DNA of 64,000 nucleotides from a bacterium 1XD42-54. Lineage in GTDB: Bacteria; Bacillota; Clostridia; Lachnospirales; Lachnospiraceae. The notes under the pieces were generated by a model, which saw nothing but the letters and a program-made list of their open reading frames with translations, ran no database searches and was not told the DNA's origin. The translations under genes were made by a program, and so were the position numbers. Where the stretch lies: positions 1 to 64,000 of the forward strand of contig RAZH01000009.1 of NCBI GenBank assembly GCA_003612585.1, in the 5' to 3' direction. Shown one piece after another: positions 8,999-41,687 of the stretch (the first letter of the stretch is position 1; each line of letters begins with the position of its first letter).

Positions 8999-11596
8999 TT
9001 ACTTCTGCCCTTCCTGCTTTACATCTGCACTCAAATTTCCGTCAGCCACATGGAATACAATCGTATCATCCATACCCACTTTACCAGAAAGAATCAGACG
9101 GGCAGCCAGCGTTTCCACGTTCTTCTGTAAATAACGCTTCAGAGGTCGCGCGCCATATACCGGGTCGTAGCCACCCTCAATGATATACCCTTTTGCATCG
9201 GAATCCAGCTCCAGACGAATCTCCTGCGCCGCAAGCCGTCTGTTCAGGTCTGCAACCATCAGATCAATGATATTTCCGATATTCTCTTTGGTCAATGGCT
9301 TGAACATAATAATCTCATCGAGACGGTTCAGGAACTCCGGACGGAAACTGCCGCGCAGCTGTTCCATCACCATATTCTGCGCCTCCTCACGGATGCTGCC
9401 GTCTGGTTCAATCCCCTCCAGCAGGAATTGTGAACCGATATTGGAAGTCATAATCAGGATTGTATTTTTAAAGTCTACTGTCCGTCCCTGAGAGTCTGTG
9501 ATCCGTCCATCGTCGAGCACCTGAAGAAGTACATTAAACACATCAGGATGTGCTTTTTCCACCTCATCAAACAAAACTACTGAATACGGTTTTCTGCGCA
9601 CCGCTTCCGTCAGCTGACCACCCTCCTCGTATCCGACGTATCCGGGGGGCGCTCCAATCAGCCGCGACACAGAATGCTTCTCCATATATTCACTCATGTC
9701 TATACGGACAATATTCTGCTCATCGTCAAACAGACTCTCGGCCAGTGCCTTTGCAAGCTCAGTTTTGCCGACGCCCGTCGGTCCCAGGAACAGGAATGAA
9801 CCAATCGGCTTGGTCGGGTCCTTGATTCCGGCTTTCGATCTCAGGATTGCCTCTGTCACCTTCGACACACCGTCATCCTGGCCCACTACTCTTCTGTGAA
9901 GCTCCTCATCGAGCGCCAGAATCTTGGCCCGCTCGCCCTGTGTCAGTTTCGATACCGGAATTCCGGTCCACCGGGAAATAATTTTAGAAATCTCTTCCTC
10001 TGTCACACTCTCATGCACCAGAGTCATCTCACGGCTGTTCACCTTTTCTTCCTCGATTGCAAGCTGCTGCTGAAGCTTCGGCAGTTCTCCGTATTGCAGC
10101 TCTGCCGCCTTGTTCAGATCATAGTTGCGTTTTGCCAGCTCAATCTCCTTATTCATTGCCTCAATCTGTTCACGCAATGCCGAAAGATTTTCTACCGCTT
10201 TTTTCTCGTTATCCCACTGGGCTTTCTGAGAATTGAACTCATCCCGCAGCTCCGCAAGTTCCTTTTGTAATACCTCAAGACGGTCCCGGCTTGGCTTGTC
10301 CGTCTCTTTTTTCAGCGCAGCCTCCTCGATTTCCATCTGCATAATTCTTCTCTGAAGCCCATCCAGCTCTGTCGGAAGCGAATCAAGCTCCGTTTTGATC
10401 AGCGCGCACGCCTCGTCTACAAGGTCAATTGCCTTATCCGGCAGGAACCGGTCTGAAATATAGCGATGTGACAGTGTAGCGGCAGCCACCAGCGCACTAT
10501 CTGTAATCTTTACGCCGTGGAATACTTCATAACGCTCCTTCAGCCCACGCAGGATAGAGATGGTATCCTCAACCGTCGGTTCGTCTACAAGCACCGGCTG
10601 AAATCTTCGCTCAAGCGCCGGGTCCTTTTCGATATATTTACGGTATTCATCCAGCGTCGTCGCACCGATGCAGTGCAGCTCGCCGCGGGCCAGCATGGGC
10701 TTCAGCATATTTCCGGCATCCATGGCACCGTCTGTCTTGCCTGCGCCTACAATCAAATGCAGCTCATCAATAAACAGAATGATTTCGCCCTCGCTCTTTC
10801 GCACTTCCTCCAGAACCGCCTTCAGACGTTCCTCAAATTCACCGCGATACTTCGCTCCGGCTACCAGAGCTCCCATATCCAGCGCAAAAATCTTTTTATT
10901 CTTCAGCCCTTCCGGAACGTCGCCCCGCACAATCCTCTGTGCGAGCCCTTCCACAGCTGCCGTCTTGCCGACACCTGGTTCGCCGATCAGAACCGGATTA
11001 TTTTTCGTCTTTCTCGACAGAATACGAATCACATTCCGAATCTCGGCATCCCTTCCAATAACCGGGTCAAGTTTCTGGTTTCTCGCCCGCTCCACAAGAT
11101 CCTGCCCGTATTTGTTTAATGTATCATAGGTCGCCTCCGGATTGTCCGTCGTTACCCGCTGATTACCGCGCACCGTAGAAAGGGCCTGCAAAAACCGTTC
11201 CTTTGTAATACCAAATTCTTTCCAGAACTGTTTCATAGAAGGACTCGGATGATTCAGCAGTGATAAAAACAGATGCTCCACCGACACATATTCGTCTCCC
11301 ATCTGTTTTGCCACATCCTCCGCGCTGACCAGCGCTTTGTTCAGATATTGACCAATATAAACATTTCCGCCTGAGACCTTCACCCGTGCATTCAAAAGCT
11401 CTTCAAGACGGTTTTCAAAGTACTCTTTCTGTATTTCCATTTTCTCAATCAGCTTGCCGATCAGGCTGTCCTCCTGATGCAACAGCGCATAAAGCAGATG
11501 CTCCTGCTCAATCTCCTGATTGCCAAACTCATAAGCGATCTTTTCCAGGTCATTCACTGCCTGGATGGATTTCTGTGTAAATTTGCTGATATTCAT
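8999..11596 (-). CDS. clpB: ATP-dependent chaperone ClpB
   Basis: 865-aa disaggregase that works with DnaK to rescue aggregated proteins. Order: N-terminal Clp repeat domain (1-145), first AAA+ module with Walker [14 protein letters not shown] (about 205) and [11 protein letters not shown], the long M-domain coiled coil (about 400-525, [20 protein letters not shown] onwards), and second AAA+ module with [14 protein letters not shown] (about 605) and [13 protein letters not shown]. The M-domain distinguishes it from ClpA/ClpC. ATG at 11596 is preferred over the TTG at 11602 because GGGAGG (11604-11609) then sits 7 nt away. Heat-shock control is visible: CIRCE overlaps its promoter. The mobile element is inserted immediately upstream. 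Confidence 0.97.
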
Positions 11597-11620: not shown

Positions 11621-11649
11621 AATATAGACCTAATTGTTAGCACTGTCAA
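11621..11649 (-). promoter_or_regulatory. clpB sigma-A promoter
   Basis: On the minus strand TTGACA (11644-11649), exactly 17 bp, and TATATT (11621-11626) lie just upstream of the clpB ribosome site. The -35 box lies inside the CIRCE operator and its outer bases are within the att repeat. Confidence 0.9.
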
Positions 11650-11663
11650 GAGGTGAGTGCTAA
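11637..11663. promoter_or_regulatory. CIRCE operator (HrcA site) of clpB
   Basis: TTAGCACTG-N9-GAGTGCTAA matches the CIRCE consensus TTAGCACTC-N9-GAGTGCTAA at 17 of 18 arm positions, with the correct 9-bp spacer. It covers the -35 box of clpB, so HrcA binding would block transcription. The hrcA gene is not in the window. Confidence 0.93.
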
Positions 11664-11688
11664 TTATTTTGTGAAGAATTTGTGAAGC
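11646..11688 (+). repeat. left attachment site (attL)
   Basis: 43-bp repeat starting TCAAGAGGTGAGTGCTAATT and ending TTTGTGAAGAATTTGTGAAGC. It contains the right half of CIRCE and two TTTGTGAAG units 11 bp apart. Compared with the right copy, only 11666 (A versus T) and 11667 (T versus C) differ. A third, inverted unit (GGCTTCACA, 11701-11709) lies just inside the element. Confidence 0.9.
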
Positions 11689-11748
11689 CTTGATTTTACG
11701 GGCTTCACAGGGATTTTTCACTTGCTTTCGCACTCGATTTTCTTGATT

Positions 11749-11829: not shown

Positions 11830-13053
11830 TTATACCACAGCAGGTACGGTTTCTGGCAGGTTCATTTTAGACATCTCGTTCTCCACATGAGACTTCTCTG
11901 CAATATGATTGTAGACATTCATTGTGATCTGTGCATCCGAATGGCCCATGACATACTGCATAACTTTAGGATTGACATTGTTCTCACCCAGTCTGGTACA
12001 TCCCGTATGACGAAGGATATGCGATGAAATAGAAGGCATCAGCTCCGGCTCTCGCTTCTCTTCTTCTGCCAATTTGCTTTCTTTCTTATTATACGCATTA
12101 ACAATGTTTTTCAGAAAACTGTTCACTCCCGCCGGCATGATCGGACGTCCATGCTTTGTATTGAAGATGAATCCACTGCGTCCACCGATCTCCACATTAC
12201 TCTGCAAACCAAGCATCAGGTTCAGCTCTCTCTGTTTACGGAACGCATCATATACCATCTGTGTCATAGGAATGTCTCTGATTCCTGCATCCGTTTTGGT
12301 TTCTGAATTATGGAAACAATATCCTTCATCACCTTCATAATATACAAGCTGTCCACCTACATGGATCTCCCGATTCTTCATATCCACATCTGACCAGGTT
12401 AAGCCGATGGTTTCACTCACTCTCAGGCAAGCCCCAAACATAACCTGCATCATTGGAAGATGAGGCTTATACACATTACTCTGTTCAACAAACTTCAGAA
12501 GTTTTTCCTGCTGTTCCAGTGTCAGTGCTTCTTTCTCCTTTGCCGGAGCCCCATAATCTCCAAGTGTTCCTGTTACCGGATTCTTGCGGATAATCCCATC
12601 TTCCACTGCCAGTTCAAAACTGGGATTCAATAAACCATAAAGACCTTTGATCGTACTGTGTGCCAGTCCTTCATCTGACAATGCGGAAAAGAACGTCCTT
12701 ACGTGAGATGTCTTAAAATCCACAACACGAATGTTTCCCAAAGTATTTCGTATCCGGTAGTCCCACATACGGATATAATTCTTTTTCGTTCTTTCCTTGA
12801 TATTCTTTGTTGCCATGTATCGCTCAAACAAAGTATTTACAGTCAGCTTCTTGACTGATGTGTCTGTAATAAGCAGATCATCCATATCCTTATTGATCTT
12901 CTTTTCCATTTCTCGCAGACTCGCCAGATCAGCTGCATAAACCGAATTACGCTTTCCGGTAATTTCATCCTTGTAGCGATACTCATAACGTCCATCCGGA
13001 CGCTGGTATTCACCTGTTTTTAAATTTCTGCCTTTATTATCTTTTCTTGCCAT
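11830..13053 (-). CDS. int: tyrosine recombinase (integrase)
   Basis: 407-aa integrase of the Tn916-like group; cuts and joins the att sites for integration and excision. N-terminal arm-binding domain (MARKDNKGRNLKTGEYQRPD, then RYEYRYKDEITGKRNSVYA), a SAM-like core-binding domain (about 75-165), and a catalytic domain with Arg in GACLRVSETIGL (about 209), HILRHT (about 344-347), GHSDAQITM and the nucleophile Tyr in NVYNHI (about 381). ATG at 13053 is chosen because GAAAGGA lies 8 nt upstream; a GTG 6 codons earlier is less likely. It lies at the left end, next to attL and its arm repeats, and points at clpB with no evident terminator in between. Confidence 0.95.
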   Translation of the reverse strand: MARKDNKGRNLKTGEYQRPDGRYEYRYKDEITGKRNSVYAADLASLREMEKKINKDMDDLLITDTSVKKLTVNTLFERYMATKNIKERTKKNYIRMWDYRIRNTLGNIRVVDFKTSHVRTFFSALSDEGLAHSTIKGLYGLLNPSFELAVEDGIIRKNPVTGTLGDYGAPAKEKEALTLEQQEKLLKFVEQSNVYKPHLPMMQVMFGACLRVSETIGLTWSDVDMKNREIHVGGQLVYYEGDEGYCFHNSETKTDAGIRDIPMTQMVYDAFRKQRELNLMLGLQSNVEIGGRSGFIFNTKHGRPIMPAGVNSFLKNIVNAYNKKESKLAEEEKREPELMPSISSHILRHTGCTRLGENNVNPKVMQYVMGHSDAQITMNVYNHIAEKSHVENEMSKMNLPETVPAVV

Positions 13054-13283
13054 ATCAATCATTCCTTTCACTTCATTTTTCGTTATTCGGAATGATTTTT
13101 GTCCTGTCGGTATCAGTCATTTACTGCCTGATATCTGCTCACAGATTAACATAATATTTTATGATTTCCAAGGGTAAATTCCTGCAAAATGCTAATTTTT
13201 ATTTGCCTGGTTTACAGGAATTTTTCCCTTTTTTACTTTTCATTCCGAAGGAAAGTTGTTGTATTTTATCTTCTCATCTTTCA

Positions 13284-14829: not shown

Positions 14830-17403
14830 CTATTTCCATGATGTATAAATTAATTGCCTTTTATCAAATGCTTCCTCTCCGCCTTCCATAATATCTACAA
14901 TTTGCTTATGTGTAGATTTCAGGTCAATATTCCCTTGCGATATATCAATCGTTGTATCTTGATACTCAACCACAAAAATTCTTTCAGCATCACCCAGAAC
15001 TGGAATGTTAGCATTGTGTGTAGCAAAAATAAATTGTATATCTTGTTTCTTTTTCGCAATTGCTGTAATTACTTCATCGTAAATAATTTTATTATCCAAA
15101 TCATCTTCTGGCTGATCTATAAGAATAATATCATTATCAGACTGCATGAGTATAAACAATATAAGAGCTGACGCACGCTGCCCTATTGAATGGTGTCGTA
15201 ATAATTTGTCATGATAATATATTTCAACATTATTGGAAACCTGATTCTTCAGAAGATCCGCATACTGATCTTGCAATTTTTTATCAAGCTTTGTATATTC
15301 TGAGGATGAAATAATTTCCTTGATTTTCATACCATCACATAATATCCAGTCTTCTATAAGCTCCACATAATCTCTAAACGTGTCACATAAGTATTGATAT
15401 TTTATTTCAGAAATACCTGACCCCCTAAAATCAGTCTTCATCTGTGATTTAAAATTATCTCTGTCACCTTTAAAATCAATAGTGATTTTTAATTCATTTT
15501 GTGATTCATTAATTTTCTGAATTTCAAGTTTATATGCATTGAATTGTTCTAATAATATATCATTTCTTTCACGCATTGCTTTCTTGAATGCACTTTCTAT
15601 TTGTTTTTTGGATTTAGCTCGTTCATCTAGTTGCTTTAAATTCTCTTTATATTTTTCCAGCTCTTCTGTCATTTTGACAAATCCATCAATATCTAACGTA
15701 TCATCTTTGATTTCTCTTTTTATTTCAGCAAATTCATCAGATAATCCATCTATTTTTTTCGATAACATTTCCACTACATCTGCAAATTCTAACGAATTAC
15801 TTTCTATCTGCGTGACGGCCTCTCCAATTTTTAAAATTTCATTTCCAATTGCACTTAAAATATCACTTGCCTTCTTTATAATATCAGAATTATAAACACT
15901 TTCCACGCCCTGCAAGCCTAAAGTCACATCTTTATTATTATCATAACACTTTTTTAATTCTCGTACTGCTGAATCAATTCGTCCTTTTACAGAATCCAAC
16001 TTTGCTTTATCTGTTGTGTATCCAGTTTGTTTTTTTAATTTTTCTGCAACGCCTTTTTCCTTGTAAATAGACATTTTATGCTCAACTTCAGATTTTTTAA
16101 TTTTGTATTCCTCAATCTGCTCTGGAATTTTATTCGCATCTAATAATTGAGAAACCGATGTTGTCAACTCCTTCACACAAGATGTTATTTCTGCACTTTT
16201 CCCTATTTTTCCACCAACCAATTTCTCAAGAAGACCATTTTCATGATCAGCACTATTTGATAGATCTTTTTGCCCAAAATATTGAATTCCATCAAACAAG
16301 CTTGACGGTTGTATATTTAAGTCAAGTCCATTTTCATCTATAACATTACTCTGTTCTCCATATATACGACTGACAATATAATGTTTGCCATGTTTATCAA
16401 CAACAGATAATGTTGCTTTTCCTCCTGAGCCAAAAATATTTTTTATCAGTGATTCTTTATATTCTTTATCTGTTTGCAACGGTAAATCAAATATATAACG
16501 AATTGCTTCAAGCACAGACGACTTTCCACTTCCGCGAATTCCAATTAACGAATTAAGCTCTGATGAAAATCTAATAGTCTGACCATCAAATTTTCCGCCT
16601 TGAAAACTTATAGATTCAATATACCCATGTCTTCTTTCCGGTAATGATTCAGCAACTCTACTTTTATAGTCCTGTAATGCAAATTTAATCGCCGCATATG
16701 AATATTCTCCGATTTTTAAATATGTTTGTTTATCGCCTTTTCCAATATCTTTCAATGATTTAGGATCCGATCCCTCTATAAGAGCTGGAATATATCCAAA
16801 ACAACGATTAAATTTATTTATATTATCCCTTGTCCTCGATTTTTGTATTCCTAAAACTCGTTTTCTAAACGGAGCAAGCCCTGAGAGCGATTCTAAAAGA
16901 CCGCCTCCACATTCGTTAAACAAACCACTGCCTTGATCAACATGGGCAAATATTACAAAATAATCTTTTCCATACTCCTCCAGTTTTTCCAATGTGCTTT
17001 TTAAATCATAACAACATTTTGTATTTCTATTTTCAGGATTAGATATTGTTGCAAATGCGGCTGTTAAAAATGTTTGAATGTGATTATTGCCATTTTCTAA
17101 CCATTCATCAGGATTAAAAACTATAAGAGTATGTATACCATTAGCTCCCTCTTTAACAGTCAATTCTACACCAGGTAATATAAATATTTTTTCTTTGCTT
17201 GCTGCCCTTTTTAAGGCTTTATATTCATCTTTGTCAAATTTATTATGATTGGTAATAACTCCAACAGAAATATTAGCTTGTTTCAATGCCGAAATATATG
17301 ATTTCACAAAATCATTTGGTTCACCACTATATGAAAATTCTTTATCTTTTTGTGTATGCAGATGAAAATCTGCCCTTAAAAATTCAAGCCCTGATTCAAA
17401 CAT
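14830..17403 (-). CDS. PHP domain plus SMC-like ATPase (TrlF/Ppl-type defence protein)
   Basis: 857-aa two-part protein. Residues 1-250 are a PHP-type metallo-hydrolase domain: DFHLHTQKD near 12-20, TNHNKFD near 52, PGVELT near 77 and FAHVDQ near 150 supply the metal-binding His/Asp/Glu residues. The rest is an SMC/Rad50-like ATPase: Walker A GIRGSGKSSVLEAI near 290, a long coiled coil (about 420-640), signature HSIGQRASALILF near 740, Walker B IILIDQPEDDLDN near 756 and FATHNA. I recognise the architecture as the TrlF family and as close to the Ppl anti-phage genes. The gene is markedly AT-rich beside its neighbours, with AAGGAGGGATAAA before ATG. It starts 16 bp after brxL, so it is the last gene of the BREX operon. 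Nuclease action on invader DNA or RNA is inferred. Confidence 0.85.
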   Translation of the reverse strand: MFESGLEFLRADFHLHTQKDKEFSYSGEPNDFVKSYISALKQANISVGVITNHNKFDKDEYKALKRAASKEKIFILPGVELTVKEGANGIHTLIVFNPDEWLENGNNHIQTFLTAAFATISNPENRNTKCCYDLKSTLEKLEEYGKDYFVIFAHVDQGSGLFNECGGGLLESLSGLAPFRKRVLGIQKSRTRDNINKFNRCFGYIPALIEGSDPKSLKDIGKGDKQTYLKIGEYSYAAIKFALQDYKSRVAESLPERRHGYIESISFQGGKFDGQTIRFSSELNSLIGIRGSGKSSVLEAIRYIFDLPLQTDKEYKESLIKNIFGSGGKATLSVVDKHGKHYIVSRIYGEQSNVIDENGLDLNIQPSSLFDGIQYFGQKDLSNSADHENGLLEKLVGGKIGKSAEITSCVKELTTSVSQLLDANKIPEQIEEYKIKKSEVEHKMSIYKEKGVAEKLKKQTGYTTDKAKLDSVKGRIDSAVRELKKCYDNNKDVTLGLQGVESVYNSDIIKKASDILSAIGNEILKIGEAVTQIESNSLEFADVVEMLSKKIDGLSDEFAEIKREIKDDTLDIDGFVKMTEELEKYKENLKQLDERAKSKKQIESAFKKAMRERNDILLEQFNAYKLEIQKINESQNELKITIDFKGDRDNFKSQMKTDFRGSGISEIKYQYLCDTFRDYVELIEDWILCDGMKIKEIISSSEYTKLDKKLQDQYADLLKNQVSNNVEIYYHDKLLRHHSIGQRASALILFILMQSDNDIILIDQPEDDLDNKIIYDEVITAIAKKKQDIQFIFATHNANIPVLGDAERIFVVEYQDTTIDISQGNIDLKSTHKQIVDIMEGGEEAFDKRQLIYTSWK

Positions 17404-17419
17404 TTTATCCCTCCTTATA

Positions 17420-19537
17420 TTACTCTACCCCCAACGCCTTAAACACTGCATCTTCCGCACTCTGATACGGAATCAGCTGAAATGCACTCATCAGATCAGC
17501 CGGAACGCTTGCAAAATCAACAAATGAGGTACTTGGAATCAGCACCTTCTTTGCGCCGCTATCCAGACACACCTGAAGTGTATTGGCAAGTTCATCCACC
17601 TTTATCATTGTGCCACTAATTGTTATATCTCCCAATACTGCCAAGTTGCTGACAACAGGCTTTCCAAGGGCAATCGAACAAAGTGCAATCAATGTTGGAA
17701 GTGCCAGTTTATCTGTCATGCCGATACCCTGCAAATCCTGATAATTGATGATGTAATCCTTAGTTGAGGTGCTGATAGATCCACTGATCCGATTGCCGTT
17801 GGCTTTCAGATAATTAAATGCCGTGTTCACCGCTTCCTTGCATTTAGAATCACTGCCTAAGCCAGTCCGTTCAATTTTGCCATTGCCTGGAAGCATCTGA
17901 CTTTCCAAACGGAATACACCAATCATGCCACTTTTTCCTCTGGATACGGTATAAACCTGTCCCGGATTACACATTCCATCCGGTATCAGCTTACCGCCAC
18001 CCTGTTCTGGTACGGAAACATAATGTTCTGACATATCTTCTAGATCTATATAAGAGAAGTTTACATCATAAAATTCCATACCGCCCAGTTTCTTCAATTG
18101 CTCCTTGACACGGCGACGCATTTCCAATGCAATCTGAATAATTTCTTCCAGTTCTTCTTTGGTAAACTCACCATTTGGGTACATCAACTTCAGATAACCG
18201 TCTATCATACGACGAACCGCAATTGTATCACGCTGATTCAGATTTCTCCCCAAGCGGAAGTAGTGATCAAGTGCATCTCCATACTGCTCCTTGCGAAGCT
18301 CTCGGATGAACTCTGCCAAATAGTCACTGATAAAACCATAATCATTAGTAAAATGCTTCGGTCTGAACTTCGGTATCTCCCATCCTGGAAGATAGCAGTG
18401 CATACGATCAAGAAATGCTGTATCTGTTCCCATTTCCTGCGGGAAAGGTGCAAACAGACTGGATGTTTTCAACAGCACGTCCACACTCTGATTAATATTT
18501 CCCACAAATACCATGGACGCAGTAGCAGCTTTTTCTTCTTTGCCACGAGCAAAAGAGCCGGATGCCATGTAATCCTTCATAATCTGAATACCATCTTTAT
18601 CCTTGAACTTAATGCCTGCCACTTCATCAAAGGCTACACAGTCCCATAAGCCGACCAGTCCGACCGTTTTGCGTCCCATATTGTAAAACAGGTTTGCAAC
18701 CGTCGTCTGTCCACCGGAAATCAAAATACTGTTCGGTGAAATCTCTTTGTAAAGATGAGATTTACCGGTACTTCTCGGTCCCAGCTCACAAAGATTAAAA
18801 TTATTCTCAACTAATGGAATCATACGGGTCAGGAGCAGCCATTTCTCACGATATGTAAATTCATCTGGCTCCATGCCAATAGAACGAAGAAGAATATCCA
18901 GCCATTCATCTTTCGTAAAAGCTGTTCGCCCTTGCTTTAGTTCATCAATATCAATGTGCGGCATCTGGATTGGTGTCAGCTTACGGATACTGATTGGAGA
19001 AATATCTTTCTGCTTTTTCTGTTTGGAACGAAGCGGATTTCCATCAATGTCCTCAATGCCAAAGTTATTGTCACCTTCAACCTCATAATCCAGCTGAACA
19101 ATACACCAGATACCGCCACAGAGCAGGCGATCAAATTTTTCTGGATATTCGTCAGCAATCGGTACATTACCAACGCCCAAATTAGAAAACTCTGCAAAAA
19201 AGCAATCCTTTTTCATATCCAAGCGAACAGTCACCATATCAATGATTGTGTGACTGCCTTTTTTACGCAGCTGAGACAGAATTTTCTGTGATTCATCCGG
19301 GCGCACAAAATTGTCAGCAAGAATACGCTTCACATTCTGTACGCCTTTCTCTATAACAGTCTCATCATCTGAGCTGCAATACTGTCCCAACAAGAACTCA
19401 AGAACATACACTGGGACATTCGCCCCTTCTTTAATTTTCTTTGTCAGGTCTTTCCGAACAATCTTACCGTCAAAGTTCTGACGGAGCTTGTTCTTTATTT
19501 CTTCACGGGTACTTTCACTCTCTGCAAATTGCTCCAT
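17420..19537 (-). CDS. brxL: BREX Lon-like AAA+ protein BrxL
   Basis: 705-aa BREX core effector. The N-terminal DNA-binding region (about 1-190) is followed by an AAA+ domain with Walker A GPRSTGKSHLYKEI near 252 and an arginine-containing sensor region, and a C-terminal Lon-protease-like fold (about 510-705). ATG at 19537 has AGGAGGAG 6-8 nt upstream; another ATG at 19558 overlaps the pglZ stop (TAATG) and would add 7 residues. In the Lon-like domain the place of the catalytic Ser reads TDKLALPTLIAL instead of DGPSAG, and the catalytic Lys place reads VDELANTL instead of GGLKEK, so proteolysis is unlikely. BrxL is needed for phage restriction, not for methylation, in studied type 1 systems. 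Confidence 0.95.
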   Translation of the reverse strand: MEQFAESESTREEIKNKLRQNFDGKIVRKDLTKKIKEGANVPVYVLEFLLGQYCSSDDETVIEKGVQNVKRILADNFVRPDESQKILSQLRKKGSHTIIDMVTVRLDMKKDCFFAEFSNLGVGNVPIADEYPEKFDRLLCGGIWCIVQLDYEVEGDNNFGIEDIDGNPLRSKQKKQKDISPISIRKLTPIQMPHIDIDELKQGRTAFTKDEWLDILLRSIGMEPDEFTYREKWLLLTRMIPLVENNFNLCELGPRSTGKSHLYKEISPNSILISGGQTTVANLFYNMGRKTVGLVGLWDCVAFDEVAGIKFKDKDGIQIMKDYMASGSFARGKEEKAATASMVFVGNINQSVDVLLKTSSLFAPFPQEMGTDTAFLDRMHCYLPGWEIPKFRPKHFTNDYGFISDYLAEFIRELRKEQYGDALDHYFRLGRNLNQRDTIAVRRMIDGYLKLMYPNGEFTKEELEEIIQIALEMRRRVKEQLKKLGGMEFYDVNFSYIDLEDMSEHYVSVPEQGGGKLIPDGMCNPGQVYTVSRGKSGMIGVFRLESQMLPGNGKIERTGLGSDSKCKEAVNTAFNYLKANGNRISGSISTSTKDYIINYQDLQGIGMTDKLALPTLIALCSIALGKPVVSNLAVLGDITISGTMIKVDELANTLQVCLDSGAKKVLIPSTSFVDFASVPADLMSAFQLIPYQSAEDAVFKALGVE

Positions 19538-19557
19538 CTTTCTCTCCTCCTGCGGCA

Positions 19558-22200
19558 TTAACTAAAAAAATCAAACTCGTCCACCGCAAAGGCGATGTCA
19601 ATCTGGAATGGCTCCCGCTGTGGCATCTGTAATCCCTGTTCATCTGCAATTACCAGATAATAAGTAGCTGTATTGCTGTATTTTAGAGATTTTAGATTAA
19701 ACTGACAACGGAAAGTTCTTTCTGCACCGTTATCGCTGGTCTTATCTGCAATAATCTTCTGAATATCACTAATCTGCTTGCCGTCCTCATCTGTAAAGTA
19801 AACCTGATAGGTTGCAGCTTCACGGTTTGTACTGACTGCATCTTTTTGATAGAAGTTCAATGAAAAAATCATATTGCTGATTTTACGGTTTGCGGACAGT
19901 AAATTAACCGTTACCGGCTTAGTATCATATTTCTGCTTATTTCGCTTATATTCCATAGAATCGTTGCGGAGATAATGATACTCAATCACCGGAACAACCA
20001 TTTCCTGCAAACTGATACCACCATGCACAAAATTCATTCCGCCACCATTCATTTTGATACGAATACTTTCTCTCGGTGCAAATCCATCAAATTCTGTATT
20101 TCCTCCCAGGAATTTTACAGGCATCAAGTAATCTGGTTGCACACCTTTCTGCATAATTGCATATCTTCTGCCATATTCTACACACCGCTTGATGCTTTCT
20201 TTTTTTGTAATGTCAGAGTTTGTTACATCCACATCAAAAAAGCCTCTTTTATCTACTTTGTCTTCTTCCTTCAAAGGACTGTATGTATAAAGAAATCCAT
20301 GATCTGCCGTAATTAGAATATTCGTTCCACCAAATTCATTTACAATAATACGCACAAGGTTCTTCAATTCTGAAATTGCCTTATCACAGGCAGCAAAAAC
20401 AGCGGTATCCGAAGTGTGGCTGGCTTCATCAATGGTATCGTGGTAAATATAGACCACATCCATCCCTTTCACCAAAGCACTTCTTTCCGCTCGCTTCATA
20501 GCAATGATGTCATTGTACTTTAAGGCCACACTTGCCGAATCTTCTGTTTTCAGAACCTTATCCCTATAAGTACTTGCCGTAGGCTGTCCATCTGCCAAAA
20601 CCGTCAAAATATTGTTCCGAACCTCTACTGTCAGTTCTTTGTGCGGCAACAAAGCTGCCATACCAAACTTTGTAGTAGAAGGGAAGATACTCTGCATACT
20701 GCTGATAGAAACTTTACTTTGCGTTTCTCGCTGAAGCTGATCTGCCATCGTAGCTGCCACTTCATAACGCATGGCATCTGAGATAATTACAAATACTTTT
20801 GTATCCGAGGTTTGAATACGGGAACGGTAAAAATCCTCCTGTTGCGGTACTTCCAGAACTTTACCGTAAGTTGCCAGTTCATCCGCACATACATCCGACC
20901 AGTTGTTGCCCAACTCACCTAAGAACCAATGATTATAGAGTCCTTCCACTTTATCGACAACGTGCTTAAATAGATCATCCAGCAGAATATTGGAAGTCTC
21001 CAAACTCTTTTGAAAACTAAGATGGAACAAACGGTAATAAGTGTCCATCTGATAGTAACTCTCTGTATATTCTTTCCAGATACTTTTCGCTTCTGCGGTA
21101 TGGAATCCGGCAGAATGTTCCTTAAAGAAACTTTGCATATTCGCCACTTGTAAGATACCGTCATAAAAATTTTCAAATGGCTCATACCATACACAAGTTC
21201 TACGTTTTTCAACGGTATTCGTAATGGTATCCACATCAATAATATGGTCACTAATCTCTGTCATTAGCTTTGTCAGAATTACTTCGTTAATACACGGAAA
21301 GCACTCTGTTCCTGCCAAATCTTCTACTGCCAGCTTTTCAAAACGCTGATACAGACGAGCTTCATCCTCAACATAACGTGCCACATCATATAATTGCGGA
21401 ATGTTATCACTATGAAGCCATTCAGAAATAAAATCATAGCAATATGCCTGATGTGGCATGGAAATAAAACCGTCCAGTCCGGCAAGATATTCCTGCCGCA
21501 TGGTACGGGTTGCTGCAGTTAAAAGCAGATGAATTGCCAACTGCCCAAGATCTGGTTCTTCCTCCACAAATCCACATCCCTGACGAACCATCGCCCAAAA
21601 AGCTGCGTCCGCATGATATTTTACAAAATCCTGATAAACCGTGTTATTATTCAAATCAAGTCCTGCCTGGAACACACTACGGAAAATCATATTAGGCTGT
21701 GCATCTTTCAATCCACAGATTGCCGCCATGACAGCCATGTGTAACTGTGCCGGTGTTTCCGGAACTTTATTCTGTGTACTGACTTTCAAACGACGGTCTT
21801 TCGCATTGAAGTAAGCATGATAATTTTTAACCTGTTTCCTCATTGCCGGATTTGATATAAGTCCCATCTCATCCATCCAGATAGAAATCAGATCTGCCCG
21901 AAACTCTTCACTGTAAAGCTCTACATCCAGAAGCCAGTTATCATCCGGGCGATTATAGACACACGGACTGTAAACCAGATAATTTGTGGTCAAATCATCT
22001 ACTGAAAGCAGTTTTTTTACAGAAAACGCATTATTTCCAGTCAGCGCAATCACCTTTGCATTTTCCAAAACCACTTCATCCAGTTTATCCTCAAATTCCT
22101 TATCTTCATCGTACCAGAAAATGATACGACGCTGATAAAACTCAGGAAGAGGTGCAGCAAACCTGCGATTTAAATCTTGTATTATTTTATCTGTATCCAT
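19558..22200 (-). CDS. pglZ: BREX phosphatase-like protein PglZ
   Basis: 880-aa PglZ, the marker gene of BREX systems. The N-terminal half is helical (RRIIFWYDEDKEFEDKLDEV near 25). The alkaline-phosphatase-like domain carries VFVIISDAMRYEVAATMADQ near 468-487 (metal/nucleophile site), VYIYHDTIDEASH near 585 and ILITADHGFLYTYS near 628, followed by HGGISLQEMVVPVIEY and a beta-rich C-terminal domain. Length fits type 1 PglZ. It lies 9 bp after the AlbA_2 gene and its stop overlaps a possible brxL start. PglZ is required with PglX for host methylation in type 1 BREX. Confidence 0.96.
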   Translation of the reverse strand: MDTDKIIQDLNRRFAAPLPEFYQRRIIFWYDEDKEFEDKLDEVVLENAKVIALTGNNAFSVKKLLSVDDLTTNYLVYSPCVYNRPDDNWLLDVELYSEEFRADLISIWMDEMGLISNPAMRKQVKNYHAYFNAKDRRLKVSTQNKVPETPAQLHMAVMAAICGLKDAQPNMIFRSVFQAGLDLNNNTVYQDFVKYHADAAFWAMVRQGCGFVEEEPDLGQLAIHLLLTAATRTMRQEYLAGLDGFISMPHQAYCYDFISEWLHSDNIPQLYDVARYVEDEARLYQRFEKLAVEDLAGTECFPCINEVILTKLMTEISDHIIDVDTITNTVEKRRTCVWYEPFENFYDGILQVANMQSFFKEHSAGFHTAEAKSIWKEYTESYYQMDTYYRLFHLSFQKSLETSNILLDDLFKHVVDKVEGLYNHWFLGELGNNWSDVCADELATYGKVLEVPQQEDFYRSRIQTSDTKVFVIISDAMRYEVAATMADQLQRETQSKVSISSMQSIFPSTTKFGMAALLPHKELTVEVRNNILTVLADGQPTASTYRDKVLKTEDSASVALKYNDIIAMKRAERSALVKGMDVVYIYHDTIDEASHTSDTAVFAACDKAISELKNLVRIIVNEFGGTNILITADHGFLYTYSPLKEEDKVDKRGFFDVDVTNSDITKKESIKRCVEYGRRYAIMQKGVQPDYLMPVKFLGGNTEFDGFAPRESIRIKMNGGGMNFVHGGISLQEMVVPVIEYHYLRNDSMEYKRNKQKYDTKPVTVNLLSANRKISNMIFSLNFYQKDAVSTNREAATYQVYFTDEDGKQISDIQKIIADKTSDNGAERTFRCQFNLKSLKYSNTATYYLVIADEQGLQMPQREPFQIDIAFAVDEFDFFS

Positions 22201-22209
22201 GCTGTCCTC

Positions 22210-23682
22210 CTACCTTATAATTTTCCAATTTGCTTTTCGTTTTGTTCCGCTCTGTACCAATCTACCTTTTTCCTGTAAAGTAGCAAACATTCGAGAAACC
22301 GTTCTTTTCGATATACCTATTTCTTCCGCATAATATGCCTGTGTTGCAGACGGATTCTTCTCTATAATCTGCAACAATTTTTCTATCTGCGTCTGTTCCT
22401 TATTAAGCGGCATTTCAGCGCCATTAGTGCCATCATTAGCGCCACAATTAACGCCATTAGCGCCATTTTTAGTGTCATTGGCGTTAATTATGGCGTTATT
22501 GGTATCAACCTGACCTCGATAAATATTGATACGCAAATCAACTTCGCCACCAATAAACTCCGGCTCTTGCAATCCGGCAGCTTTTACTTTGTCTATAATT
22601 CTCGGAATGCCGCTTCCCCAATGCTCGATCAGATTCATGTAAGCAAACGCATGAGCAAGAGCTTCATTTCTGATTTTAGAATAGCCTTCTTTCATACGCT
22701 CCATCGTTTGTCCCATTGGCAACTTTCCTGGAGAAGTAATTTCCAATCGGTTGTCATATACCGCCACCTGTATCGTACCATGATCCAGATAACTACGATG
22801 TACCATAGCATTGATAATCAACTCACGAATGGCATCCGGTGGAATCTCATAAACATCCTGGCGATAAATTCCCACAATTGTAGCACCTAGATGAATATTT
22901 CTTAAAACAAACTGAAACGCTTCGTCTATCTGTTCCCAAAGCGGACCGGTATACTCTCTACGATCAACAAATACCGCTTTCGTTGTACCTTTGAACACAC
23001 CACATTGCGTTGCAACATGAAGTCCTCCGTTGCCTTTCAAAATAGCAAACGCATTGGATGGAAAATCTTTTCCATCACGCTCAATTAAAATTCCCCAGGA
23101 ACGCAACTGCTGTCTTCCCACATCTTTGATCGATGCTTTCTGTTCCTCTGTACGAGCATTTCTGACAGCCTGCTCTTTCATAGCTTTGCAAAGGGCATCA
23201 ATATCTTCATCTGTAACATTTAACCCAGTACATAAAGCCTGATCGTAGTAACGATTACTACCCTCAAACAACAATTCTTTTATCATATACTCGTCGGCAA
23301 GGCGGGTAGTTCCGGCAACACGAACATATACACCGCCATCTCTGCCAAGAGCCTTGATATAATATGGGCGCTGCCTGCCCTCTGAAACCTCTACCACAAT
23401 AACAGTCTTGCCATCAACCGTTTGTAAAGTAATATCCGGGATGATTGCCGGTTCACAGCTGTCTGATACAGCATTGGCAATGGCATCCATTTTTTTGAAC
23501 ACATCTTCCTTGTCAAAGCCGACAACCTCTCTGGTTTTATCGGCAATTCCGAAAATGATTTTTCCTCCGGTTCCATTTGCAAAGGCAACCACAGATTTCA
23601 TATATTTGATGCTTTTTTCCGGCAGGTTCTCTTTAAACTCTACATTTTTTGATTCCCCTGCAAGAATTTCTTCTATGGTCAT
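22210..23682 (-). CDS. AlbA_2/ATPase/HTH protein within BREX operon
   Basis: 490-aa multidomain regulator-like protein. Residues 1-130 are an AlbA_2 (Schlafen-like) nucleic-acid-binding domain (SKNVEFKENLPEKSIKYMKS, FANGTGGKIIFGIAD). About 250-390 is a HATPase_c_4 type domain (IPPDAIRELIINAMVHRSYL, DNRLEITSPGKLP, WGSGIPRIID). A repetitive linker rich in NGAN/NDT (about 395-425) precedes a C-terminal winged helix (ATQAYYAEEIGISKRTVSRM). These proteins are often mislabelled RecG-like. Its position between the 300-aa unknown gene and pglZ, same strand and short gaps, makes it part of the BREX operon. AlbA-type proteins occur in some BREX and other defence loci; a regulatory or RNA-targeting role is inferred. 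Confidence 0.85.
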   Translation of the reverse strand: MTIEEILAGESKNVEFKENLPEKSIKYMKSVVAFANGTGGKIIFGIADKTREVVGFDKEDVFKKMDAIANAVSDSCEPAIIPDITLQTVDGKTVIVVEVSEGRQRPYYIKALGRDGGVYVRVAGTTRLADEYMIKELLFEGSNRYYDQALCTGLNVTDEDIDALCKAMKEQAVRNARTEEQKASIKDVGRQQLRSWGILIERDGKDFPSNAFAILKGNGGLHVATQCGVFKGTTKAVFVDRREYTGPLWEQIDEAFQFVLRNIHLGATIVGIYRQDVYEIPPDAIRELIINAMVHRSYLDHGTIQVAVYDNRLEITSPGKLPMGQTMERMKEGYSKIRNEALAHAFAYMNLIEHWGSGIPRIIDKVKAAGLQEPEFIGGEVDLRINIYRGQVDTNNAIINANDTKNGANGVNCGANDGTNGAEMPLNKEQTQIEKLLQIIEKNPSATQAYYAEEIGISKRTVSRMFATLQEKGRLVQSGTKRKANWKIIR

Positions 23683-23724
23683 CGTAACACCTCGCTCTCC
23701 TTAACAGTCCTAACCACCATATTT

Positions 23725-24627
23725 TTACTTGATTGATGAAGAAATTGAGCTCAGTGCTTTGCTTAAAGCATCTTCATCAGCCTTTTTTCTTCTCTCACTT
23801 TCCCACATACCGAGTATCTGATAAATGCATCCTTTCACAACAGGAAAATACTTTCGGCATTCTTCTTCGCTTAACTCATGAATACCTTTGCTCAAGATTC
23901 CGTAAATAGTTGTATTTTGGATGAGCATCTCCGGCACATATCCTTGTAACATCTTAATTCGTTCAGCCACCCTTGCCTTTTCAAATTCCTCATCATTAAC
24001 CGCATCTCCCGCAGTTGTTTTTGCTTGATAAATAAGTCTTTCAAGAATTCGCCTCAAGTAAACATATGAACCTGCACCAACACCACTTGCAAAAAGTCCT
24101 ATTGCTGTTCCAAGTTCTTTACGGTCTTCCTTAGAAATCACATGCTTATAATCATCTAATTCTGGAAATGTCATGTCTGCAACAGATGGATACTGACCAA
24201 TTTTTGTCATTGAATTATCTGTTGTCAGAACAATATAATCCAAATGATGCTTCTCGTCCATTGAACAAATATATTCCAATTTCATTAATCTCGTTGTATC
24301 AGCTATTTGCCAATTTATCCATTTCCATTCTTCAGCAAAACTCTTTTCTTGTTTAGCTTTGGTGCTAAATATCATATTTTGAAGTGACTCTATTTCCTCA
24401 CCAAGAGATGCACACCTAATCTTTTCATCCCCATCTGGACCCGTTTCAAAATAATACACAATAGGCTTCATGTAAAAAACACGCTCTTGCTTGCACTCTT
24501 TGCAATAAGCACTAATTTTAACATTTCCTTTAAGCAACTCAATTAAGTCAGCAATATTATCTTCACAAATTTCTTTAGAATCATATAATCCCGCAGCTTG
24601 TAAAAACGTAGTAAATATATTGTCCAT
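23725..24627 (-). CDS. unknown 300-aa protein between pglX and AlbA_2 gene
   Basis: Not recognised with certainty. Residues 1-150 contain a possible metal site (YCKECKQERVFYMKP near 40 and YICSMDEKHH near 123) and a beta-rich stretch ending LDYIVLTTD. Residues about 175-300 are helical: GSYVYLRRILERLIYQAKTT, VAERIKMLQGYVPEML, GILSKGIHELSEEECRKYFP. This C-terminal pattern resembles DUF4145/HEPN-like helical domains that occur in defence islands, but no catalytic R-x4-6-H motif can be read, so nuclease action is not claimed. It starts 15 bp after pglX in the same direction and has its own ribosome site (AAGGAGGGAGTGCGTAA before ATG). Confidence 0.7.
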   Translation of the reverse strand: MDNIFTTFLQAAGLYDSKEICEDNIADLIELLKGNVKISAYCKECKQERVFYMKPIVYYFETGPDGDEKIRCASLGEEIESLQNMIFSTKAKQEKSFAEEWKWINWQIADTTRLMKLEYICSMDEKHHLDYIVLTTDNSMTKIGQYPSVADMTFPELDDYKHVISKEDRKELGTAIGLFASGVGAGSYVYLRRILERLIYQAKTTAGDAVNDEEFEKARVAERIKMLQGYVPEMLIQNTTIYGILSKGIHELSEEECRKYFPVVKGCIYQILGMWESERRKKADEDALSKALSSISSSIK

Positions 24628-24642
24628 TTACGCACTCCCTCC

Positions 24643-27600
24643 TTACTTTATTTTAGCCAGAACATCCTGGAAAATTGCATAATTCTTCTTCACGCCATCG
24701 TCCAGATCAATAGAAATCATCTGGTCAGCAAGGTGATGAATCTTTTCTTCGTAGGCTCTGATTTCGGTATCCTGTGCCTGCAAGGTGGTCAGCTTTTTAT
24801 TCATCTTCACTCGCTCACCAGTGGAAGCATTGGCAATCCGCTGCTCCAAATCAGCAATAGCAGTGCGATAACGAGCCTGCTGTTCATGCACATAATCGGT
24901 ACGAATACGGGCAATGGTGTCTGGCTGATAGCGGTGCATATAAATCAGAGCCTTAAAGCCGTTCTTCTTACCACTGTCAAACAACCAATAAATCGGGCGT
25001 TTTTGATAAATCTTACAATGATCTTTATAAAAATCATTTAGGAAATAATTTCGAATTACATCTTTCGGCTGACCTTTTCCGCCCAGAGCATCAGCAATAA
25101 ATTTCAGGTTTTCATCCAGCGTATCTGCACCGTAAACGGTTTTCACGAACTCCACAAACAGACCGACAATATCATCCTCGAAGTATTCATCGTCGCAGAT
25201 CGGGATAATGTTATCCTTATCCGCAGCGAAAGAAGCGTACTTGCTGTCACACCCCAGGGTTCCCTCTCTTCCTCCTTCGGAGGAAGTCACCTTGTCCCAT
25301 TCGCCGCTTGCATAGGCAAGACCATCCACATCCAGAGAATAACGACCAAACATACAGCCAACCGCATAGGAAATAAAGGATCGAATATCTCTGCCAAGGT
25401 CAGCCTTGCGAACCGTGACATCCTTATCCTCCACCTCCGGTGTCAGCTCATCCTGCAAACCGTAAATGTCGATGAAGATACGATTCAGCTCTTCCTCGTT
25501 GGCTTTCAGATGATTGAAACGGCTGTCGCACTCGTTCTGCCACTGGGCAAAGGCTTCGGAAATGGTAGAAACTTTGCGAAGCAGTGGGTGGTGCTGGAAG
25601 TCCCATGAGGTTTCAAAGGAATCCCAATCCGTTTGTGATAATAAAATATTCCATTTTGTTAATTGATTTACCTCATCTTCATTTGAATATACAATTGGTA
25701 TTCTATTTATCTGCTCAGGACCATAGTTAATTGTCGGTGCTAAATATCCTAATATTTCCATTGCAACTTTTGAATTTAAGAGTGCTAAATGATACATAAG
25801 TTTTTTATTAAAGAAAAAACTAACTGGTCCACCATTTCCAAACAAAATTCCTTTTGGAACATACCGACAGGTAAAAATGCTTGAAGAAATTTCTGTCCAA
25901 GTTATAGCTTCCAGCATATAATACTGTGAATCTCTCAAACGATAATTCTTAACATTTGCTTTTATATCCGCTCCATCATTCTCTAAATTTACAATCGTAT
26001 CAAAATTGCCATACCACCGTCGCTTTTCTCCTCCAGATGTAACAGGAAACCATTTCATTGACGAATCTATCATTTCAGCATGAGAATACAATTCAAACCC
26101 AATCTTGCCAATATTCACTTCATGCCATAAACGAAGATATGTATTATTATCTCCAGTCAACACTCCCTTTTTCGTTTCACCTGCAAATTTATTTCCTGTC
26201 TGAAATGCTTCAAGCATTTTAGTACTTGCCCAATATGCCACAGGATTTCCTGGTATTATTGAAAAATTATCTGTATTCTGCTCGTAATAAAACCCACAAT
26301 CGTGGTTTTTAATTGCTTCCAATGTTTTCTGCCGCTGAACTTCCATACCACCCCGGAAATCTACCAAACGCAAATAGCATCCCTTTTTCTGTACATTGCG
26401 ATTTTTGAAAGCAAACGTACATACCGGAACGGTTGCTTCTTCAAATGCAGAATATTCAAACTGAATCAGTGTTTCAATGGTTGCTTGGTTATACAAGTAA
26501 TTACGCATTTTCTCATAGCTCTGAATGAACATCCAAACATACGGGGTAAAGAATCCGCAATAACCACTCTGTTTTGTCATTTGAGAAGCATGAATGACAA
26601 ACGCAGAGAAGAAATCGCTCTTATAATCTGCGTGATTATTTTTTATAAATTCATTCAGCTTCGGATTCATATTAGACGCACCCATATACGGCGGATTCGT
26701 CACTACCACATCATATTTCTGTGCCAGAGCTTCTGCCACCTGTACCAGCGGCAGTAATTCTCTCAATGCCGTCTCACGGGACATATTTATATCTTCCGTA
26801 ATCTCTGCAAAGCGGTCATACAACGCAGACCAATCCTGCGGTGTTACGTTCAGAATAGAACCGTATTCCTTTGCATCATGCAGTTCGCTGATAATGGTGT
26901 CCATAGCAGCTGTCAGCTTCGCATCCCCATTGCAGAAATAGTCTACCGCAAATTCATCTACATGATTGCTCTCCACAATAGCATATACATGGGGCTGAAT
27001 GCCACGGCTGAAGAAGCGGCGGTCATACTGACGGGCTTTCATCATTACCGCAAAATAAGCCAGCTGTGCCGCACGGTCATCAATATCCAATCCGTAAAGA
27101 TTATTCTCCACAATGCTTGCCACTGCTTCACGTGTAGTATAGCCATAGGATTCATAAATCTTCATCAGCACATCGAACATATACGCAAGAATATGACCGG
27201 AACCGGAGCATGGGTCAATGACTTTCAGTTGATCCGGTGTCAGTGCGGCGTATTCCTTACGAATTTCTGCAAGCTGTGCCTGCACTTCCGGCTCCTGCTC
27301 AGCTTCTTCCAGATAGTAGTGCCATTTGGTATCTTCCGTGTCACGGTTTCCAGCAGCATAGGCAGACTGTTCTTCCTCGGTAGGCAGAAACTGATCTTTG
27401 GCATCCGGGTGTCCTTCCAGCCACAGACGACCAAGGCTGTTCTCTACCATGTAGCGAACAATCCAGTCCGGTGTAAAAAGCTGGGTTGCTGCAGGGATGT
27501 TTTCCTTTGTGATTTTCACATTCTTTTTCAGTGCTGCGAAAACATCGTCTTTTTTCTCGCTGTTATAATACTGATATAGCCAGCCGATGATCTGGACAGC

Positions 27601-28194
27601 ATCCTTCCAGTCATCCTCCGTTATCAGTTCAATCATCTGCTGAATGACACTGCCTTCACGGAGCAGATTATCCGGCAGAAGAAGCTCTGTGTAATCGGCA
27701 ATCTTTTGGAACATTCCCGGCAGAATCTTATTCAGAGCGTTGCACTGCACAATCAGCAGGTATTTATACAGTTCTTCGCTCTTTTCTGCATCTTTCAGTT
27801 CATAGACCTTTTCCATATCGAGTCCATCCAAATCCAGATGAATGGCTTCGGTTATAATCTGCGGCTTAAAGTTGTTTTCCTCGTCCGTGAATACACGCAC
27901 ATGGGAAGGAAGATAGCCGTTAACTTCCATGAATCGCAACGCAGAAAAGCGGTTAAACCAAATGTAGGCAACCTCCTCCATGACCTGCTTATATCCTTTA
28001 TCGTTAATCTCGGCAATAAGAGCCTGACGCTGTTTCTTTTCATCAGCTATGAGGACTTTGCCGCCAATGCTGTCCGCATTGGCATCCTCAATATTGTCCT
28101 CTGTGATACCGTATTCCACACCTTTCAATGAAACACGAGCGATCAGCTCTGTTCTTGCCCAAACAGCAAACTTTTTTATCGCATTTTTATCCAT
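24643..28194 (-). CDS. pglX: BREX-1 adenine-specific DNA methyltransferase PglX
   Basis: 1183-aa PglX. It methylates adenine in a non-palindromic host site, marking self DNA, and is also needed for defence. SAM-binding motif I is VIDPCSGSGHILAYMFD near 325, catalytic motif IV is VVVTNPPYMGAS near 499, and the long C-terminal part is the target-recognition and regulatory region (LGRDIRSFISYAVGCMFGRY near 935). Full type 1 length. It begins 3 bp after the SEFIR gene stop, so the two must be cotranslated from one message. Near residue 970 the sequence TSSEGGREGTLGCDS looks like a small insertion and coincides with a DNA palindrome (25268-25286). No inverted pglX copy or recombinase is present, so no sign of phase variation. 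Confidence 0.96.
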   Translation of the reverse strand: MDKNAIKKFAVWARTELIARVSLKGVEYGITEDNIEDANADSIGGKVLIADEKKQRQALIAEINDKGYKQVMEEVAYIWFNRFSALRFMEVNGYLPSHVRVFTDEENNFKPQIITEAIHLDLDGLDMEKVYELKDAEKSEELYKYLLIVQCNALNKILPGMFQKIADYTELLLPDNLLREGSVIQQMIELITEDDWKDAVQIIGWLYQYYNSEKKDDVFAALKKNVKITKENIPAATQLFTPDWIVRYMVENSLGRLWLEGHPDAKDQFLPTEEEQSAYAAGNRDTEDTKWHYYLEEAEQEPEVQAQLAEIRKEYAALTPDQLKVIDPCSGSGHILAYMFDVLMKIYESYGYTTREAVASIVENNLYGLDIDDRAAQLAYFAVMMKARQYDRRFFSRGIQPHVYAIVESNHVDEFAVDYFCNGDAKLTAAMDTIISELHDAKEYGSILNVTPQDWSALYDRFAEITEDINMSRETALRELLPLVQVAEALAQKYDVVVTNPPYMGASNMNPKLNEFIKNNHADYKSDFFSAFVIHASQMTKQSGYCGFFTPYVWMFIQSYEKMRNYLYNQATIETLIQFEYSAFEEATVPVCTFAFKNRNVQKKGCYLRLVDFRGGMEVQRQKTLEAIKNHDCGFYYEQNTDNFSIIPGNPVAYWASTKMLEAFQTGNKFAGETKKGVLTGDNNTYLRLWHEVNIGKIGFELYSHAEMIDSSMKWFPVTSGGEKRRWYGNFDTIVNLENDGADIKANVKNYRLRDSQYYMLEAITWTEISSSIFTCRYVPKGILFGNGGPVSFFFNKKLMYHLALLNSKVAMEILGYLAPTINYGPEQINRIPIVYSNEDEVNQLTKWNILLSQTDWDSFETSWDFQHHPLLRKVSTISEAFAQWQNECDSRFNHLKANEEELNRIFIDIYGLQDELTPEVEDKDVTVRKADLGRDIRSFISYAVGCMFGRYSLDVDGLAYASGEWDKVTSSEGGREGTLGCDSKYASFAADKDNIIPICDDEYFEDDIVGLFVEFVKTVYGADTLDENLKFIADALGGKGQPKDVIRNYFLNDFYKDHCKIYQKRPIYWLFDSGKKNGFKALIYMHRYQPDTIARIRTDYVHEQQARYRTAIADLEQRIANASTGERVKMNKKLTTLQAQDTEIRAYEEKIHHLADQMISIDLDDGVKKNYAIFQDVLAKIK

Positions 28195-28197
28195 ATA

Positions 28198-29307: not shown

Positions 29308-29316
29308 ATCTGTCTC

Positions 29317-29805
29317 CTATTCTTTTTTATTGATTCCAATACTTCTAATATTTGACCTTATCGCAAACAATGGAACTGGTAGTATTCCTTTTGCTTTTTT
29401 CTTTTCAATACTAATTGCAGTTACTTGACATTCCTCAAAATATTCCATTTGACAATGCCATTCCAATGCGTCTGCTTCCTGTTCGGATAAAGTATATACG
29501 ACATTATGGAACGGCAATATAATTCTATCGCTTTCTGGCATTTGACAATCTACCAATATTTTTTTCTTATAACAAATTACGAAGTTTTCCAAAACAAAAG
29601 GTTTCTCACCGACATTAAAGATTTCAATTCCATGTTCAGAAAAACTTTCTTTCACACGATATTCTTTCTCTGTCAACTCATTTTCTGGGGTTGCTACCAT
29701 TTGGAAACATAGCTTCGGTCGTCCTCGAAAAATAGTAGTCAGTTCATTTAACAACCAGCCAATAATAACTCCTAAAATGCCAATAGCTGTACTAATCAGT
29801 TCCAT
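29317..29805 (-). CDS. membrane-anchored unknown protein between brxC and SEFIR gene
   Basis: 162 aa, not recognised. A single N-terminal membrane helix (ISTAIGILGVIIGWLLNEL, residues 4-22) with a basic stop-transfer (FRGRPK) puts the remaining 135 residues in the cytosol. That part is beta-rich (EHGIEIFNVGEKPFVLENFV, HNVVYTLSEQEADALEWHCQ, CQVTAISIEKKKAKG). Start preceded by GGAGAACAATAGAAA. It lies 19 bp after brxC and 9 bp before the SEFIR gene, so it looks like the partner of the SEFIR protein: a membrane tether, or a membrane effector held in check. Neither role can be shown from sequence. Confidence 0.75.
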   Translation of the reverse strand: MELISTAIGILGVIIGWLLNELTTIFRGRPKLCFQMVATPENELTEKEYRVKESFSEHGIEIFNVGEKPFVLENFVICYKKKILVDCQMPESDRIILPFHNVVYTLSEQEADALEWHCQMEYFEECQVTAISIEKKKAKGILPVPLFAIRSNIRSIGINKKE

Positions 29806-29824
29806 TTTCTATTGTTCTCCACCT

Positions 29825-33373: not shown

Positions 33374-33386
33374 GGCTTTATCCCCC

Positions 33387-33947: not shown

Positions 33948-33958
33948 CGGGTTACCTC

Positions 33959-39961: not shown

Positions 39962-39993
39962 TTTATTAGCACTCTCCATTTCTCATCTTTTTT

Positions 39994-40023: not shown

Positions 40024-40129
40024 TCTGACACTGCTTTACAATACCAGACAAAATGGCTGATGCCCCGGAAAGCCTGTAAAACAGGCACTTCCGGGATACA
40101 CAAGACAGGACAAAAATCGACTTCCATTA

Positions 40130-40172
40130 TCAAGAGGTGAGTGCTAATTTCTTTGTGAAGAATTTGTGAAGC
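40130..40172 (+). repeat. right attachment site (attR)
   Basis: 43-bp copy of the left repeat with differences only at 40150-40151. Here the bases left of the repeat (CTTCCATTA) do not complete a CIRCE and no promoter elements follow, so the functional operator stays with clpB at the left end. Confidence 0.9.
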
Positions 40173-40237
40173 TGTTTCTTATAATTCTTACCTCGTATAA
40201 AAGTGTCATTTCCTGTAAATTTACAATTAATTTTCAA

Positions 40238-40275: not shown

Positions 40276-40325
40276 TTCTTCGAAAATCGTATGGCGCAAT
40301 CCTATTAGGGGAGCTAACGTGCGTT

Positions 40326-41663: not shown

Positions 41664-41687
41664 CTCATAACCTCTTTCTCTCTTTTG

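Follow-up and report, generated by a model that had tools for sequence, protein, structure and literature searches.

Insertion of a 28.5-kb element immediately upstream of the heat shock gene clpB raises the question of what the integrase recognises in the chromosome and what becomes of the clpB promoter and operator. The window analysed here is the whole 64-kb stretch of DNA, positions 1-64000 of contig C34 from a genome of 3.7 Mb, in which the element extends between boundaries at 11646 and 40172. Sequence comparison makes it very probable that this integrative mobilisable element enters the chromosome at the CIRCE operator, which would serve as attachment site for its tyrosine integrase of the Tn916/Tn1549 type. 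The features on which the argument is built are as follows.

8999..11596, minus strand: clpB, the target gene (865 aa; Pfam, and NCBIfam TIGR03346 above cut-off)
11621..11626, minus strand: clpB -10 box TATATT (sequence; promoter scan)
11637..11663, no strand: CIRCE operator TTAGCACTG-TCAAGAGGT-GAGTGCTAA, rebuilt at attL, one mismatch to consensus
11644..11649, minus strand: clpB -35 box TTGACA, with TTGA inside the shared core and CA chromosomal (sequence; promoter scan)
11646..11663, no strand: attL core, the 9-bp spacer (11646-11654) plus the element-supplied CIRCE arm GAGTGCTAA (11655-11663), from comparison of 11 attL/attR pairs
11646..11688, no strand: 43-nt direct repeat, left copy
11682..11708, no strand: stem-loop GTGAAGCC/GGCTTCAC at the int-side end of the element (sequence)
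11830..13071, minus strand: tyrosine integrase, Tn916/Tn1549 type (PF00589, PF02920; Tn1549 Int structures 6emy/6emz/6en0, E 3e-43)
14830..34564, minus strand: BREX cargo, BrxL, PglZ, PglX, BrxC, BrxB and BrxA, with SLFN/AlbA, bSEFIR and AAA genes interspersed (PADLOC, Pfam)
35190..36760, minus strand: MOB relaxase and NikA/MobC-like protein (mobilisation)
40121..40147, no strand: attR core, degenerate second arm CTTCCATTA, spacer and intact arm GAGTGCTAA
40130..40172, no strand: 43-nt direct repeat, right copy
40326..41747, minus strand: polysaccharide deacetylase, the chromosomal gene flanking the element on the right

clpB begins with an ATG at 11596, its product matches the ClpB equivalog model, and its promoter on the minus strand consists of TTGACA (11649-11644) and TATATT (11626-11621) separated by 17 bp, the -35 box being covered by CIRCE at 11637-11663. 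PMC3806222 gives the CIRCE consensus as TTAGCACTC-N9-GAGTGCTAA and describes it as required for HrcA binding; the copy in the window conforms apart from one mismatch. At a tolerance of ≤3 mismatches this CIRCE is unique in the 64-kb window, where 100 shuffles gave an average of 0.04, and the entire 3.7-Mb genome contains five, located before groES, hrcA, htpG, clpB and a lon-like frame, the genes other than clpB being named by eye from translations. The genome also encodes HrcA, and CIRCE is present at both groES and hrcA.

The element carries an integrase, att repeats and a relaxase, as is expected of an integrative mobilisable element, in addition to a ParM-like protein and TnpV, while no conjugation protein was found in those reading frames that were scanned, a part of the total. 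Both the catalytic domain (PF00589, E 3.4e-28) and the Tn916 arm-binding N-terminal domain (PF02920, E 1.3e-19) of the integrase score above the gathering score, the domain order is that of the Tn916/Tn1549 integrases, and the catalytic motif positions correspond by alignment. The R-K-HxxR-H-Y set is present as LRxSE, KT, HILR, GHSD and NVY in an alignment to Tn1549 Int read by eye. All six components expected of BREX type 1 (BrxA, BrxB, BrxC, PglX, PglZ and BrxL) were detected with PADLOC and Pfam. Cargo varies behind the same integrase: QatABC-like and restriction-like genes at L007, BREX at L010, and ABC transporters with TetR at L018. Similar hairpins to the stem-loop at the int end were seen by eye at the int ends of relatives.

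A direct repeat of 48 nt and 92% identity links 11641-11688 with 40125-40172 and is one of two direct-repeat families of ≥25 nt in the window. The sequence-only reading of this locus had described a 43-bp repeat that starts inside the CIRCE spacer and contains the GAGTGCTAA half together with four bases of the -35 box (TTGA). This is confirmed from sequence, the starting point being the first spacer base and the two copies being imperfect (41/43 identical, two differences). The same reading took these 43 bp as the att repeat. This part was not borne out, as the only sequence shared by 11/11 attL/attR pairs is one arm and the spacer, so that the 43-bp repeat is ruled out as the recombination core and the true core is ∼17-20 bp. 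The outer TTCACAAATTCTTCACAAA similarity in the window is not general among the 11 pairs; it also occurs at some integrase-free sites, possibly as a host motif or as the scar of an old insertion.

Whether CIRCE is the target, or lies at the target by coincidence, was addressed with relatives of the integrase gathered without regard to insertion site, CIRCE being recorded if a full copy with ≤4 mismatches lay within 600 nt 3' of int. The integrase queried against 84,980 species genomes yielded 28 loci, 21 of them with CIRCE. A family sample of 397 genomes yielded 142 places in 103 genomes at E≤1e-60, of which 111 were examined (left out were the 30 weakest and one skipped), comprising 27 at CIRCE, 5 clade members without CIRCE and 79 outgroups. 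Four CIRCE-positive loci are common to both sets, so that the distinct total is 44; of the 54 distinct loci that make up the clade, these 44 have their end at a distance of 47-478 nt from a full CIRCE. The outgroup integrases, 34-43% identical, were at CIRCE in 0/79 cases, five of the 79 having <300 nt of downstream DNA. Thus, the proposal that CIRCE is the target survives the test on relatives that might have been inserted elsewhere. At least 28 of the 397 family-sample genomes contain a clade integrase. Named hosts include Blautia, Clostridium fessum, Dorea, Hominifimenecus and Parablautia, together with Faecalibacillus (Coprobacillaceae), which is outside the class of the others. The earlier suggestion that this target would ensure a site in many Firmicutes is not established, the range found being chiefly Lachnospiraceae with a few others and a phylum-wide sample of 398 genomes returning the own genome as sole match at E≤1e-90. 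Phages and plasmids contained only integrase relatives of <60% identity.

The ten clade loci off a full CIRCE comprise four that run directly into another element's end, two secondary-looking, one coreless (L051), one with an altered integrase end and two at contig ends (L021 and L026). At L069, L071, L032 and L024 the int end meets the far end of another element, the core joining the two directly, an arrangement that has the appearance of tandem arrays at CIRCE. Only the element's own arm is found at L011 (identical to L036), in a P-type ATPase-like reading frame, and at L070, within another gene, and these two are likely secondary insertion sites. The L016 integrase is clade-like over residues 1-361 but has a different C-terminal end and no CIRCE, and is perhaps a chimera with another target.

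The genes behind the 44 sites are hsp20 (19), clpB (17), htpG (3), groES/groESL (2), the lon operon (1) and other genes or contig ends (2). The hsp20 gene is ∼1.1 kb from the site at L020, another frame stands first at the lon operon site, and the two sites without an assigned gene are at a contig end (L054) and before another frame (L061); hrcA follows none of the 44 occupied sites. Orientation is uniform, every assigned gene pointing away from int and int being read towards the gene. As CIRCE is used before genes besides clpB, the target is the operator and not the gene. In addition, the htpG spacers AACCTGTTT, AACAAAACT and AATGAAAAT are without TTGA, the -35 box lying 24 or 25 bp past the first arm, which indicates that the common feature is the dyad and not the -35 box.

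Junction anatomy was compared in 11 elements whose two ends were located on a single contig, in the same orientation and separated by 7.9 to 46.3 kb, with the intervening genes only partly checked. The arm TTAGCACTC is present at both ends in 11/11 pairs, whereas the second arm departs from CIRCE by 0-4 mismatches at attL and by 4-8 at attR and is thus CIRCE-like on the gene side only, indicating that recombination occurs within the spacer. In five pairs (G323, G035, G350, G300 and G080) the two ends carry different bases at spacer position 9, which places the exchange to the left of this position. Other spacer bases differ between attL and attR in G397, G402, G407, G412 and G300, so that identity of the overlap is not strict; such mismatches are unusual for strict overlap homology and count against CIRCE as the attachment site. 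In the htpG elements, too, attL and attR have the arm in common, together with most of the spacer. Among 49 distinct attL, namely the 44 without L033 and L034 plus seven sites found through the core or clpB in a biased search (L153, L187, L209, L236, L237, L260 and L278), the element-side arm is perfect in 48, while the chromosome-side arm has 0-4 mismatches. Combined, the junction comparison indicates that the distal arm comes from the element and the proximal arm from the chromosome. A recombination repeat that leaves out the operator, which would have spoken against the sequence-only reading, was not found, as one whole CIRCE arm and the spacer are shared in every pair.

The CIRCE dyad most likely provides the integrase core sites, as judged from these sequences. 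The two 9-bp arms would act as inverted core-binding sites of Int, with strand exchange in the 9-bp spacer to the left of its last base; the junction pairs place the crossover in this spacer. The int-side end of the element carries a perfect CIRCE arm and the spacer and the other end a degenerate arm, such that after integration attL has a full CIRCE and the gene retains its promoter. With the displaced operator arm supplied anew by the element, insertion would be harmless.

The position of the promoter agrees with this scheme. A scan of 42 of the 44 attL (L033 and L034 were left out) detected a sigma-A-like promoter on the gene side, with the -35 box located at the spacer or past it, in 42/42, with a spacing of 17 in 41 and 16 in one. 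As a control, a weaker promoter-like match (3-4 mismatches) was obtained on the distal side in 21/42, the scan being loose. The gene-side promoter in all 42 indicates that the gene keeps promoter and operator after insertion, and the claim that integration rebuilds both at clpB is upheld, a full CIRCE being present at attL. In the own genome the same scan placed a promoter on the gene side at clpB and htpG, on the distal side at hrcA, and on neither side at groES and lon. At L048 and L072, where groES is the occupied gene, the site belongs to the overlapping type, in contrast to groES of the own genome. The CIRCE copies found occupied thus appear to be those whose promoter stays with the gene. 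Insertion at other copies would sever a chaperone gene from its promoter, or Int may also need a fitting spacer.

Native sites were sought at clpB in the genus, where 45 loci were matched and 30 were examined, the dyad being allowed ≤5 mismatches. A CIRCE-like dyad is present at 26/30 and absent from the clpB promoters of the other four (L275, L276, L277 and L281). An integrase is found in the flank of three (the own genome, G856 and G813), and 23/30 have CIRCE with no integrase in the flank examined, from which it follows that CIRCE is native. By eye, four of these 23 look like scars of lost elements and the rest do not, the four (L264, L265, L268 and L284) showing hairpins or repeats like those of the int end. 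A same-species empty site was sought with the right flank, 40173-41900, in 47 genus genomes and none was seen; the closest match of this flank (89%) is in G856, the nearest relative, and lies away from clpB in the DNA examined there. The G856 clpB is 99% identical, and its operator is occupied by a different integrase, ∼75% identical to that of L060.

The same observations bear on three other explanations. Recognition of the clpB region or of the heat shock -35 element TTGACA, CIRCE being present merely through overlap, would account for the occurrence of TTGA within the spacer at ∼41 of the 44 attL sites obtained without bias and for the promoter on the gene side at every attL scanned, but it has to contend with at least five target genes that are unrelated to one another. 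The htpG sites, with spacers that are without TTGA, are also occupied by integrases of this clade or its neighbour, and attR has the same arm; given the htpG sites the -35 box is unlikely as the target, and we regard this explanation as improbable. The dyad at attL could instead have been made by the element, its own arm having come to rest beside a half-site. One arm is indeed element-supplied, yet the 23 genus clpB loci with CIRCE and no integrase in the flank, few of them scar-like by eye, leave this origin the least credible of those considered.

A loosely specific integrase whose surviving insertions are chiefly upstream of the promoters of well-expressed genes is scarcely more credible. 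Tn916-type integrases are fairly loose in target choice, and the likely secondary insertions L011 and L070 are what such an enzyme would leave, but outgroup integrases of the same fold in the same hosts are never at CIRCE (0/79), the own genome offers only five CIRCE in 3.7 Mb, and 11/11 pairs break inside the CIRCE spacer to the base.

Use of CIRCE as the attachment site by the integrase itself is therefore the reading that we carry forward, and with it arises a possible link to heat stress. HrcA and Int would bind the same dyad, HrcA might shield both the empty site and attL, and removal of HrcA by heat might raise integration or excision; we consider this series of events possible but doubtful. 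If true, the element would read the stress state of its host through occupancy of the attachment site and would do so without encoding a regulator. A heat link through int expression was discarded, as the window contains no second CIRCE that could belong to int.

The usual targets of integrases are tRNA genes and the ends of genes, and Tn916-type elements are known for relaxed, AT-rich targets, in contrast to the one defined operator dyad of this clade. At tRNA genes the crossover occurs in the loop of a conserved dyad and the element copy restores the displaced part, as at CIRCE; the dyad here differs in being a repressor operator that overlaps or precedes a promoter. TnGBS-type elements, which encode DDE transposases, insert upstream of promoters without silencing the gene and have no fixed operator site, so that both land by a promoter, here through a tyrosine integrase at a defined sequence. 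According to PMC4482086, dusA-associated integrases are likewise one family with one conserved target, very diverse cargo and an end that replaces the displaced sequence, but they target the 5' coding end of one gene, whereas this clade uses a regulatory operator of several genes. No report of CIRCE or heat shock promoters as an attachment site was found in the full-text literature, a coverage that takes in few subscription papers and preprints, and the accessible part of PMC6907783 does not mention heat shock, clpB, hsp20 or CIRCE. Repressor operators in front of several members of a single regulon would thus be another kind of conserved, dyad-shaped landing site. Their use makes testable the gating of a mobile element by a host stress regulator through competition for the attachment site, and provides a rule for finding further elements in gut bacteria, including carriers of phage defence (BREX here and at L010, Qat-like genes at L007).

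In a quick tree of 114 integrases, CIRCE users fall into two neighbouring clades, of 33 and 4 rows, two pairs of non-users are found among the CIRCE-user clades, and 70 rows form a user-free side. The no-CIRCE label requires 3 changes, compared with a mean of 30.2 in shuffled labels (0/500 shuffles as low), clustering that is also favoured by near-copies in a tree with long branches. From this tree it is possible that CIRCE use arose once or twice. Identity was rejected as a border of the clade: CIRCE members descend to 42.4% identity to the window integrase and outgroups reach 42.6%, and since these ranges overlap the tree is the better guide.

Several minor observations were also made. TTCACA direct repeats ∼11 bp apart are found just upstream of CIRCE in the window (11664-11688 and 40148-40172) and at L191, L192, L199, L214, L215 and L224; they occur also without an integrase and are either a host motif or a scar. 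The TTAGCACTC half-site recurs at 39966-39974, at the start of the TnpV frame, which may be chance. Two perfect 28-nt inverted repeats with loops of 17-18 nt, at 8609-8681 and 46344-46417, are terminator-like. The own genome has a second integrase, an outgroup of 40% identity (L002, G000:C32:69268-70452), the 3' side of which enters a frame that we take to be tRNA-binding-like; this frame also lies beside L077 and L082 and is perhaps a target of its own.
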